DNA from: Planctomyces sp.
GTDB taxonomy: Bacteria > Planctomycetota > Planctomycetia > Planctomycetales > Planctomycetaceae
Direction: 5' to 3'
Assembly: GCA_016795105.1 (NCBI GenBank)
Contig: JAEUIH010000082.1
Span: forward strand, 1 to 32,855
Length of the DNA: 32,855 nucleotides
Position 1 is the first letter of the stretch; every line of letters begins with the position of its first letter. The notes below the pieces were generated by a model. It ran no database searches. It was not told the DNA's origin and saw only the letters and a program-made list of their open reading frames with translations. Made by a program: the position numbers and the translations under genes. Positions 7,498-14,528 of this stretch are shown one piece after another.

Positions 7498-7612
7498 ATC
7501 TTTAACCTTCGGTGAGTGTTAGGCCTTCGGTGAATTTCGGGTGTGAGTGAACTTCCGGAACCCGCCAGACCTTCGTCTGGTCCTGCCCTTTCTCAATCGA
7601 AGATGGGCCGAC

Positions 7613-9025
7613 ATGGCATTGACTCAACGACCGCTTACTCAACGACGTCTGACTCGACGACGTCTGCTTCATGCAGGCGGCATTGGCGCACTTGCCGCAA
7701 GTGGTCTTCCGATGGTTGGCCTCGCAGACCTTTTGGCCAACAAGGCTACTGAAGGTCGAGGAAACTCTGCAAAGTCCTGCATCTTCATCTATCAGTATGG
7801 AGGACTGAGCCAGCTGGATTCCTGGGATCCCAAGCCGGCGGCACCCGCAGAGATTCGCGGTCCATATCGCCCCATCTCCACTCGGACACCTGGTCTTCAG
7901 GTTGGCGAACTGATGCCGCGACTGGCGGAACTGTCAGATCGATACTGTGTGATTCGATCGATGAGCCACGGAGTTCCCGTGCACAATATTGCCAACGAGA
8001 TGCTGTTGGCCGGTCGTTCCGATCCACGTCGCGATTCACCATCGCTTGGTTCGATTGTTACTCGACTCAGGCCCGTTCATGATGGACTTCCGGCTCATGT
8101 CTGGCTGCAGAAGTTTGGCGGCGGTGCAGCGCCGGCAGATTCAGCGTATTTGACGGGTGGTTTTCTTGGAATGTCACACGCGCCCCTGGTTCTGGGAGAA
8201 CGACACGACGACAATCCGGCAACATCCGGATTTCGTGTGCGTGCTTTTGAATCGGCAGAGGATGTCGGAGCAGATCGACTTCGCATACGCTGGGAGCTCC
8301 TTCAGAGTCTTCGTATGCTGGAGGCTGATTCAGGTGATCCGGCAAACCGAGTCCTGTCGGACTTTCAGAAACGTGCGATGACACTGCTGAGTACCGAAGA
8401 GTCTCAGCAGGCTTTTGATTTGGAACAGGAGCCACCTTCAGTTCGGGATCGCTATGGAAGAAATCCCTTTGGACAAAACCTGTTGATGGCGCGGCGGTTG
8501 ATTGAATCCGGTGTGCGGCTGGTCAACGTTGTGGCGTGGACCGGCCTTGCGGCGAACGAGAAATTTGTCAGCGTCGAAACATGGGATATGCATGGTAACG
8601 CAGGGATCGGTATCTTTGACAACGGCTGGAATGGACTCGGCTGGGCACTGCCTCGCTGTGATATGGCGGTCGCGGCTCTGCTGGAAGACCTGACGGATCG
8701 AGGGCTTCTGGACGAGACATTGGTTGTGCTCGTTGGAGAATTCGGAAGAACTCCGAAAATCAGCCGAGGGGCTTCCGCAATTGGCAGAGACCACTGGCCC
8801 AACTGTTATTCGGCAATGCTGGCCGGGGCCGGGATTCAGGGAGGATTAGTGTATGGTCAATCGGACGATACCGCCGCATATGTTCGAGAAAAGCCAGTAC
8901 GGCCTGAAGACTTCAGCGCCACAATCCTTCATGCACTCGACATCGACCCCGCCACTCGCCTAAGCCCCGACGGATTTACTCTTCCCGCAAGCTCAGGTCA
9001 GCCAATCCTGGAACTTTTCGGATAA
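7613..9025 (+). CDS. DUF1501 family protein, Tat-exported, behind tatA genes
   Basis: This DUF1501 protein has 470 residues from the ATG chosen here. An upstream GTG at 7547 would add 22 residues before the twin-arginine signal and is less likely. Family motifs are IFIYQYGGLSQLDSWDPKP, RSMSHGVPVHNIANEMLLAGR, LVGEFGRTPKI, GRDHW and a C-terminal ATILHALDID. The signal peptide is odd: residues 3-17 are three copies of a pentapeptide (LTQRP, LTQRR, LTRRR) encoded by three near-identical 15 bp units at 7619-7663, ending in the twin-arginine motif and followed by the hydrophobic region GGIGALAASGLPMVGLA. Unlike the copy at 196-1644 it has no DUF1553 partner. Its substrate is unknown. It could share the tat transcript, but the 115 bp gap leaves that open. 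Confidence 0.9.
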   Translation: MALTQRPLTQRRLTRRRLLHAGGIGALAASGLPMVGLADLLANKATEGRGNSAKSCIFIYQYGGLSQLDSWDPKPAAPAEIRGPYRPISTRTPGLQVGELMPRLAELSDRYCVIRSMSHGVPVHNIANEMLLAGRSDPRRDSPSLGSIVTRLRPVHDGLPAHVWLQKFGGGAAPADSAYLTGGFLGMSHAPLVLGERHDDNPATSGFRVRAFESAEDVGADRLRIRWELLQSLRMLEADSGDPANRVLSDFQKRAMTLLSTEESQQAFDLEQEPPSVRDRYGRNPFGQNLLMARRLIESGVRLVNVVAWTGLAANEKFVSVETWDMHGNAGIGIFDNGWNGLGWALPRCDMAVAALLEDLTDRGLLDETLVVLVGEFGRTPKISRGASAIGRDHWPNCYSAMLAGAGIQGGLVYGQSDDTAAYVREKPVRPEDFSATILHALDIDPATRLSPDGFTLPASSGQPILELFG

Positions 9026-9030
9026 CGTAG

Positions 9031-9226
9031 CCAGGGTGCAGCGGACGGCACATGGAATGTGCCTGCTACTGTAGCAGGCAGACTCCGTCTGCCGTCCGCC
9101 GGCGCACCAGGGAGTGCAGCGGACGGCACATGGAATGTGCCTGCTACAGTAGCAGGCAGACTCCGTCTGCCGTCCGCCGGCGCAGCAGGGAGTGCAGCGG
9201 ACGGCACATGGAATGTGCCTGCTACT
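9031..9226. repeat. Tandem cloverleaf-forming repeat, 2.5 copies
   Basis: Three tandem units start at 9031, 9107 and 9185; the third breaks off at 9226, one base before the stop codon of the minus-strand DUF2088 gene. In unit 1 every base from 9041 to 9099 can pair, apart from three tiny loops: outer stem GCGGACGG (9041-9048) with CCGTCCGC (9092-9099); hairpin CACAT-GGA-ATGTG (9049-9061); hairpin CCTGCTAC-T-GTAGCAGG (9062-9078); hairpin CAGAC-TCC-GTCTG (9079-9091). Unit 2 (9119-9177) repeats this with the central T changed to A, which keeps the symmetry. Unit 3 has the outer left arm, the first hairpin and half of the second. Loops GGA and TCC are complementary. The array fills the space between convergent genes. 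Short reading frames within it are by-products of the repeat. Confidence 0.9.
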
Positions 9227-10489
9227 TTAATCGACGTCAGACATTGAGCCGTCGGGGTTGACGGGGAAATCGAACGGGTTGCCATCGAAGCTAAGATTTG
9301 GGTTTTGTCGAACCTCTTCAAAATACGCTTCGGAGACTCGAACTTTGGTCAGGTGCAGGGTGTTGCTGATCTGGATGACTCGAGCATTTTCAGGTTCGAC
9401 AAGTCCGATTGTCTGAAGAGCTGCCTCAACGGCGGCGGCATCCGTGGGCAGGGTGATGGGGATCATCGCAGCTTCCGGGTGCAGTCCAGTGATGCAGTTG
9501 ATTCTGGTAATGACAGGATCAATCTGACGAACACAGCGTTCTGTTGTGAATTCTGCGATCCCAATACCGGTACCATTTCCTTCCGTTTCCGGCGTCAGTG
9601 AGCGAACAAGAATGCGGCGGCAGCGGGCGAGGTCGCGAGGGGTTGCGAGGTGATCAATGAACTTTCGCCCGATGACATTTGCGTCCATTCCGAGACCGCT
9701 GATGTTCTTTCCAATATGGTCGACAATCAGCAAATCCACATCGGGAAACGGCAGTCGTGGAAGCCACTGATTTGCCAGATTCAAGAGCTCGGGCTCTCGA
9801 GTAGCAAACTTTTCGGGTGGCACAGCATCGAGCATCGCCGTTTCATCTTCAGCGTTCTCAATAATCGCAAGTCCACCACAGACGCGACAGACGTTCAAAA
9901 CACGCTCCGCCACAGATTCGAGGATTTCCGGAAAACTGTTATCCAGAATGGCTCTATGATAAACCTTCGCTCCCTCGTGCTTACCCAATCCGATCAGCAT
10001 CATCTTGTGGAGACCGGATTCAATCGGACCTACGAAACGAGTATGTGGTTTGACTCGGTTACAGACAAACACATGATCGGCTTCTGAAGCAAAACGATCA
10101 AAATGTACGGGCAGGCCTTTGTTTGTCTTTGCGACAATGACAGTCTCCATCGTTCCGCGAATCGGAGCGCCGATGTAATCCTCTGTGACGCCGAATCCCT
10201 TCAAAACCTTTAGCTGGCCTTCAACTGTTCCGCCTCCATGACTTCCCATGGCAGGGACGATGAATGGTTTCGCTCCCAGACTCTGAAAATGTCGGACGAC
10301 TTCCCTCAGAATCAGGGCGATATTCGCGATTCCGCGACTGCCACCGCTGATTGCCACTGACTGTCCAGGCTTGACCTTCTGTTCAAGGTGAAGGCTTTGC
10401 ATCTGAGCTTTGACAGTAGCTGGAATATCGTCCACCCGCGGACAGTCAAAACGCTGACGGAGATTGCACATTCGTGGGAAACGAGTCAC
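9227..10489 (-). CDS. LarA-like / DUF2088 domain protein
   Basis: This 420-residue protein belongs to the lactate racemase N-terminal-like (DUF2088) family. Evidence is the N-terminal region with QSVAISGGSRGIANIALILREVV, the PAMGSHGGGTVEGQ loop, and HFDRFASEADHVFVCNRVKPHTRF in the middle, followed by a SGLHKMMLIGLGKHEGA segment. True LarA uses a nickel-pincer nucleotide made by LarB, LarC and LarE, none of which is nearby, so racemase activity cannot be assumed. The start is GTG at 10489, with AAGGA 6 bases upstream; an ATG at 10471 is the alternative. It is the last gene of the sppA operon, 20 bp behind the pterin dehydratase gene. Its stop codon abuts the tandem repeat array. Confidence 0.85.
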   Translation of the reverse strand: MTRFPRMCNLRQRFDCPRVDDIPATVKAQMQSLHLEQKVKPGQSVAISGGSRGIANIALILREVVRHFQSLGAKPFIVPAMGSHGGGTVEGQLKVLKGFGVTEDYIGAPIRGTMETVIVAKTNKGLPVHFDRFASEADHVFVCNRVKPHTRFVGPIESGLHKMMLIGLGKHEGAKVYHRAILDNSFPEILESVAERVLNVCRVCGGLAIIENAEDETAMLDAVPPEKFATREPELLNLANQWLPRLPFPDVDLLIVDHIGKNISGLGMDANVIGRKFIDHLATPRDLARCRRILVRSLTPETEGNGTGIGIAEFTTERCVRQIDPVITRINCITGLHPEAAMIPITLPTDAAAVEAALQTIGLVEPENARVIQISNTLHLTKVRVSEAYFEEVRQNPNLSFDGNPFDFPVNPDGSMSDVD

Positions 10490-14502: not shown

Positions 14503-14528
14503 CAGCTCGGGCATTTCTGCCCGAGCTG
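14503..14528. terminator. Bidirectional terminator hairpin
   Basis: CAGCTCGGGCA (14503-14513) and TGCCCGAGCTG (14518-14528) form a perfect 11 bp stem with a TTTC loop. It begins 3 bases after the symporter stop and lies 40 bp beyond the end of the convergent DUF1559 gene, where a terminator for both is expected. There is no T run on either side. Confidence 0.75.

Follow-up and report, generated by a model that had tools for sequence, protein, structure and literature searches.

Three tandem REPINs of a GTAG-tagged REP family between two convergent planctomycete genes, and a candidate RAYT transposase on another contig

We think, with a probability of about 0.93, that the repeats at 9027-9225 of the window (the whole stretch of 32,855 nucleotides analysed here) are three REPINs of a GTAG-tagged REP family, for which the RAYT P0001 would be the cognate mover. 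A REP of this family has a GTAG tag, two bases, a 7-bp stem and the loop TCC; in a complete unit of the array 19 nt of spacer separate GTAGCAGGCAGACTCCGTCTGCCGTCCGC from the inverted GCGGACGGCACATGGAATGTGCCTGCTAC, with the GTAG tags outward, which makes 77 nt, followed by one base. What is unusual in the window's genome is that the two halves of a REPIN almost never carry the same stem.

Table 1. Parts of the array and its flanking genes (positions in the window)
Feature	Position	Strand	Description	Basis
Tandem array of three REPINs	9027-9225		Between two convergent genes, gap nearly filled	Sequence
REPIN 1, internally deleted	9027-9069		GTAGC of left REP, spacer remnant, intact right REP	Sequence
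Right REP of REPIN 1	9041-9069	-	Stem GGCACAT/ATGTGCC; exact REP match 9047-9069	
Joint base T, REPIN 1 to 2	9070		CTAC-T-GTAG	Sequence
REPIN 2	9071-9147			Sequence, repeat and pattern match
Left REP of REPIN 2	9071-9099	+	Stem GGCAGAC/GTCTGCC	
Spacer of REPIN 2	9100-9118			
Right REP of REPIN 2	9119-9147	-	Stem GGCACAT/ATGTGCC	
Joint base A, REPIN 2 to 3	9148			Sequence
REPIN 3	9149-9225		REP 9149-9177 (+), spacer 9178-9196, REP 9197-9225 (-)	Sequence, repeat and pattern match
Left flanking gene, DUF1501 protein (PF07394)	7547-9025	+	TAA stop 9023-9025, one base before array	
Right flanking gene, Lar_N-like (PF09861)	9227-10489	-	Stop codon 9227-9229, one base beyond array	

The earlier note had described a tandem element here in another register. 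Its two complete 59-nt cores (9041-9099 and 9119-9177) and half core (9197-9225) are indeed present, and the sole difference between the two cores is, as it said, the central base, which is T at 9070 and A at 9148; the element, however, really extends over 9027-9225, and, biologically, what repeats is a REPIN of 77 nt together with one base. Tandem-repeat analysis finds the 78-nt period at 9036-9225 (2.4 copies, 98% matches). Each of the window's five intact REPs, GTAG tag included, fits the family pattern exactly, when 0.09 matches would be expected at up to three mismatches. The left GTAG begins at 9027, one base past the TAA of the DUF1501 gene, and this outer end reads TAAC-GTAG, without an AAA flank; at the other end the third copy stops, as noted before, just short of the stop codon at 9227-9229, its closing CTAC ending at 9225 and a single T lying between. 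The right-hand gene belongs to the family PF09861 (Lar_N), which we take to be the one formerly named DUF2088. Rfam covariance models at gathering score gave no match in the window. Near its 5' end the DUF1501 gene also carries three in-frame copies of a 15-nt repeat (7620-7666), perhaps in a signal region.

A genome search of the kind that the earlier note proposed reveals hundreds of dispersed copies: GTAGCAGGCANNNTCCNNNTGCC has 393 exact matches on the two strands of the 8.9 Mb genome (391 contigs), against none for the same pattern read backward. Site-level counts refer to the 113 sites among the matches listed, which hold 356 REPs if degenerate ones are included, 307 of them exact (hereafter the listed sites). 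There, an unpaired GTAG lies 5' of the short palindrome in 318 of 356 REPs, and the loop is TCC in 346, although the search pattern itself required at least two of these three letters. The variable triplet of the 321 perfect stems is CAT in 113, GAC in 91, TTC in 53 and CTC in 53, with CTT (4), CAC (4), GTC (2) and GAT (1) as rarer forms. Sixty-eight listed sites are intergenic, 20 lie at contig ends, and 25 overlap an ORF of at least 90 codons, many of these ORFs being perhaps spurious. Since several contigs start or end in REPs, arrays are probably under-assembled and the copy numbers are lower bounds. At C358:17, C366:35, C330:3, C60:45, C266:49 and C25:56 a contig of this genome starts and a REP array follows after a few dozen bases at most.

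The compensatory changes that the note had asked about are present in the stems. In a set of 18 distinct sequences that we chose ourselves, 96.0% of cells are paired, changes compensate at three of the seven stem pairs, and 23 double-change cells are observed, against 8.2 after shuffling and at most three with the partner slid.

The listed sites contain 126 head-to-head pairs, with spacers of 18-21 nt in 54 and mainly of 37-67 nt in the others, 82 tail-to-tail junctions, exactly 1 nt long in 74, and 35 same-direction neighbours. The base at the 74 one-nucleotide joints is T in 33, A in 21, C in 14 and G in 6. Similar whole REPIN units are dispersed at unlike flanks: the window's spacer, for example, recurs at C77:86808 with 89% identity between flanks that differ. 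A comparison of spacers gave 53 against 9.15 in the null, a contrast that is slightly too favourable, the length filter being applied in the null and absent from the observed set. At the listed sites 83 of 146 outer ends have AAA just before GTAG, also where no gene ends upstream (29/50, background 1.5%); in other genomes 40 of 80 ends have it, with 0/11 in G272 and 0/3 in G226. The TAG of the tag is itself the stop codon at 38 of 89 gene 3' ends at the listed sites and at 10 of 48 in other genomes.

P0001 is encoded at C42:175-834, on a contig other than the window's. Its best NCBIfam match is REP_Tyr_transpos (E 1.8e-17, 63.6 bits, short of the curated cut-off of 80), and it scores 27.6 bits against Pfam Y1_Tnp, for which the cut-off is 23; a search by sequence gave no PDB relative at E 0.01. 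The HUH motif and the tyrosine are kept, with H136 in 73 of 73 aligned RAYTs and H138 and Y196 in 72. The stop codon of P0001 is the TAG of the first GTAG in an array of three REPINs directly 3' on C42; the note had suggested looking for a REP-associated transposase gene, and this one ends in the very same REP. Among the functions it had offered, that of a REP-like element moved by a RAYT-type transposase is well supported by dispersed copies, compensatory stems and this gene; these REPINs very probably spread by means of the matching RAYT, a mobility deduced from sequence. Of 80 RAYT relatives (L104-L183), 29 end in GTAG, 11 of these with a perfect hairpin right behind, and the REP at the stop codon is possibly a translational self-limit.

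The association extends to relatives of the gene. In the 35 of 80 RAYT loci for which neighbouring hairpins were listed, 15 show hairpins of the form GTAG-YA-GGC(N4)-TCC, and the more distant RAYTs have other stems, mostly with a TCC loop. On a RAYT tree of 73 rows (8 of 80 loci were omitted by length) the REP type, labelled by hand, changes four times, the fewest possible for five groups, and none of 200 shuffles is as low; 36 rows have no REP label, including L114, which lies inside the YA-GGC clade with another hairpin. RAYTs from Candidatus Poribacteria MAGs (L108, L109, L111, L112) are 61-64% identical to P0001 and have GTAG-TA-GGC REPs; these four loci nest within the clade of the planctomycetes, a hint of transfer from one phylum to another or of errors in binning. 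The nearly identical loci L123 and L124 come from MAGs titled Candidatus Kuenenia and Planctomycetaceae, and one of the two bins is probably contaminated. A second RAYT of the window's genome, P0002 (L040, C350:351-587 and flanks), adjoins another REP family, GTAGCTTGGGCATTCCTGCCCGAGCC / GTAGGATGGGCATTCCTGCCCGTCC, single copies of whose stem occur at other sites (L015, L025). In the window, positions 14509-14522 and 107-120 are near matches to the inner hairpin of this other family, with one mismatch each (2 against 0.32 expected; 4 of 100 shuffles reach 2).

REPs and close RAYTs also co-occur among 397 genomes of the class, 58 of which contain the REP pattern, 32 with at least 10 copies. At least 10 REPs are present in 11 of the 14 genomes having a RAYT at least 53% identical to P0001, versus 21 of the other 383 (Fisher 4.8e-11; 10/13 and 4.7e-10 without the window's own genome). 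The 53% cut was chosen after the list was seen; with all 59 genomes at E<=1e-50 the figures are 16/59 versus 16/338 (7.9e-7). Against a strict association, 21 of the 32 genomes with at least 10 REPs lack a RAYT that reaches 53% identity, and G035, G146 and G210, three of the 14 with a close RAYT, have no REP of this pattern. The family is patchy even among close congeners: these REPs are absent from G001 and G003, and the covariance model finds a single one in G002 (66% complete); G001 carries another RAYT (47% identical) with another REP. The right-hand gene, used as a protein query in 59 relatives (17 loci parsed, its own included), led to no empty site: the gene order of the window is not shared by relatives, and the intergenic stretches cannot be aligned.

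How might such an array arise? P0001, as a HUH single-strand nuclease, would bind the folded REP in single-stranded DNA, be directed by GTAG to a dinucleotide for cleavage, C|T or C|A, and move or copy the REPIN, a non-autonomous unit with GTAG and CTAC ends. For the TnpAREP enzymes described in PMC8266576, GTAG guides a cut at C|T and, in one of the enzymes, at C|A as well. In the array the joint offers both dinucleotides again, since the C that closes CTAC is followed by T on one strand and by A on the other; cleavage at successive joints might then release 78-nt units whose rejoining gives a tandem, and this would explain the exact 78-nt period. It has to be said against this scheme that the joint base is C or G in 20 of 74 junctions at the listed sites, where at least one of the two strands offers neither C|T nor C|A. 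On either side only a single base separates the array from a stop codon, and the RNA hairpins of the array could protect the 3' ends and slow ribosomes at termination.

The idea of a perfect four-way junction, which the earlier note had favoured, has to be considered at the level of the 59-nt core, which is simply two REPs meeting back to back (tail-to-tail); two REP pairs thus meet at their tags, which gives the four-way symmetry. A partition into 8, 5, 8 and 5 bp can be drawn, as it said, and the GGA and TCC loops are complementary; still, at most 52 of the 59 bases can pair, and the middle hairpin of 8 bp would leave a 1-nt loop that cannot close, so that it becomes a 7-bp arm with a 3-nt loop. 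The core folds far beyond chance (z -8.5 for DNA and -9.6 for RNA, with 0 of 200 shuffles each). Its predicted minimum is, with both RNA and DNA parameters, the single long imperfect hairpin that the note had given as an alternative: -44.2 versus -31.5 kcal/mol for the four-way form as RNA (12.7 higher), and -24.7 versus -18.4 as DNA (6.3 higher), in nearest-neighbour models that include neither tertiary stacking nor protein. On these energies we reject the four-way junction as the stable form. One could nevertheless imagine a true Holliday-like cruciform bound by a junction-specific protein, given the existing partition, the possible kissing contact of GGA with TCC, and the tight tail-to-tail joint that forms such a core at 57 of the 113 listed sites. 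We regard this as very improbable in view of a form 6 to 7 (DNA) or 13 (RNA) kcal/mol above the long imperfect hairpin, of the many sites without such a core (a single head-to-head pair at 55 of the 113), and of the 38 pairs from other genomes, most of which lack the tight joint. What recurs genome-wide is the single REP and the head-to-head pair, which does not support the junction as the selected unit.

Two further readings concern the locus itself. If an ordinary inverted repeat, belonging to no family and having no function, had been duplicated locally in tandem, this could account for near-identical units (97-98%) within the array; the note had held that a single locus without compensatory changes would speak for it, and with hundreds of dispersed copies (the 393 exact REPs refute it directly), compensatory stems and the RAYT association, the probability of this reading is practically nil. 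It is less easy to dismiss, but in our opinion still unlikely, that selection maintains the array at the convergent pair as a bidirectional transcription terminator or 3'-end element, mobility being only its origin. The 68 listed sites with two callable flanks are 37 convergent, 25 tandem and 6 divergent, as compared with 7, 29 and 15 among the 51 remaining gaps of these loci (Fisher 6.8e-6), and in E. coli ribosomes stall at REPs that follow a stop codon by less than 16 nt, according to an earlier study cited in PMC12306157. The orientation bias is, however, equally explained by tolerance of insertions after genes; the array is not conserved at the gene pair (none of the 16 parsed relatives' loci has the same neighbour and array); and there is no T-tract. 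A search for intrinsic terminators (GC hairpin plus T-tract) gave no terminator-like site in 8900-9400 (0.4 in shuffles), which tells against the terminator between convergent genes proposed in the note.

We return to the REPINs and to the pairing of their halves. Leaving out five of the 126 head-to-head pairs, which have other stems, only 2 of 121 pairs with classic stems at the listed sites are matched. Counted per site and pair type, 89 of 91 join different stems; 20,000 shuffles gave 23.5 matched on average and never fewer than 9, against these 2, a result that is not a strict probability, the listed sites sharing ancestry. CAT-TTC (29), CAT-GAC (29) and CTC-GAC (20) make up 78 of the 91. 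Neighbours in the same direction behave the other way, with matched stems in 30 of 35, and every pair is unmatched in the seven arrays of the listed sites that mix pair types. Homotypic pairs are the usual state in the other genomes sampled: at the first loci of ten of them 34 of 38 pairs are matched and 4 unmatched, in a small and non-random sample.

The contrast between 89/91 unmatched here and 4/38 there suggests selection against long perfect hairpins. In models of single-stranded DNA, cores with matched stems reach -38.6 to -40.8 kcal/mol, against about -24.7 for the two commonest combinations; the mean over 86 pairs is -26.2, as compared with -30.2 when shuffled, and the effect is weak once only unmatched pairs are considered (P about 0.013, with swaps that are not independent). 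That tight tandem arrays need unmatched stems is weakened as the sole cause by the sites without a tight joint, where 29 of 30 pairs are unmatched; the pairing rule is therefore more than a condition for tandem growth. In other genomes, a tight joint lies between two matched, degenerate REPs at L337, and the tight array of G226 is unmatched. We would tentatively propose, as a reading that we hold to be somewhat doubtful, that REPINs here have been under selection against self-complementarity and went from homotypic ancestors to at least four interchangeable stem types in almost only heterotypic pairs. If so, the long hairpin would lose strength, going from about -40 kcal/mol to between about -25 and -29, and each REP would keep the ability to fold for the RAYT. 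The pairing rule may also reflect a founder effect, since the sites share ancestry.

GTAG REPs, REPINs, heterodimers and stop-supplying tags are already published (PMC3733652, PMC8266576), and our comparisons refer to the parts of these texts that we could draw on. Like the GTAG families of Di Nocera et al. (2013, PMC3733652), the present one has a GTAG tag, a stem within their 6-9 bp and a short loop; these families too form dimers with tags outside or inside, many preferring heterodimers, lie beside the 3' ends of convergent or unidirectional genes, have RAYT genes flanked by repeats, and often supply a TAG stop codon with their termini. Several REP families are listed there for R. baltica, and our family, set beside the 24 GTAG consensus families by description and not by consensus, may be one of them. 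What differs from those descriptions is the near-absolute heterotypic pairing and the 1-nt tandem joints. As in the REPINs and RAYTs of Bertels and Rainey (PMC8049555) and the BIMEs of E. coli, going by the portion of that source considered, there are two inverted REPs, a fast-changing spacer, local tandem amplification and one dedicated transposase gene; unlike them, this planctomycete family has a TCC loop, a perfect stem and three partner combinations in 78 of the 91 site-and-pair combinations at the listed sites. The Group 3 TnpAREP of Stenotrophomonas and Marinomonas resemble it in their short, perfectly paired REP, 3-4 nt loop and GTAG; for these, the text of PMC8266576 consulted reports a GTAG guide and C|T or C|A cleavage in vitro, whereas for P0001 such cleavage is a prediction. 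The literature searched contains, in its text, figures and supplements apart, no description of the REP sequence found here.

In a phylum about which little has been published on the subject, these results document a REPIN/RAYT system with many members, name a transposase candidate for it and give counts over the whole genome. According to Di Nocera et al. (PMC3733652), in their treatment of REP dimers, the preference for heterodimers "has no obvious explanation". A near-absolute rule, beside relatives that pair the same REP with itself, makes the heterodimer question testable: is a perfect REPIN lost, or not amplified, through hairpin-cutting enzymes, or does the RAYT need REPs that fold separately?
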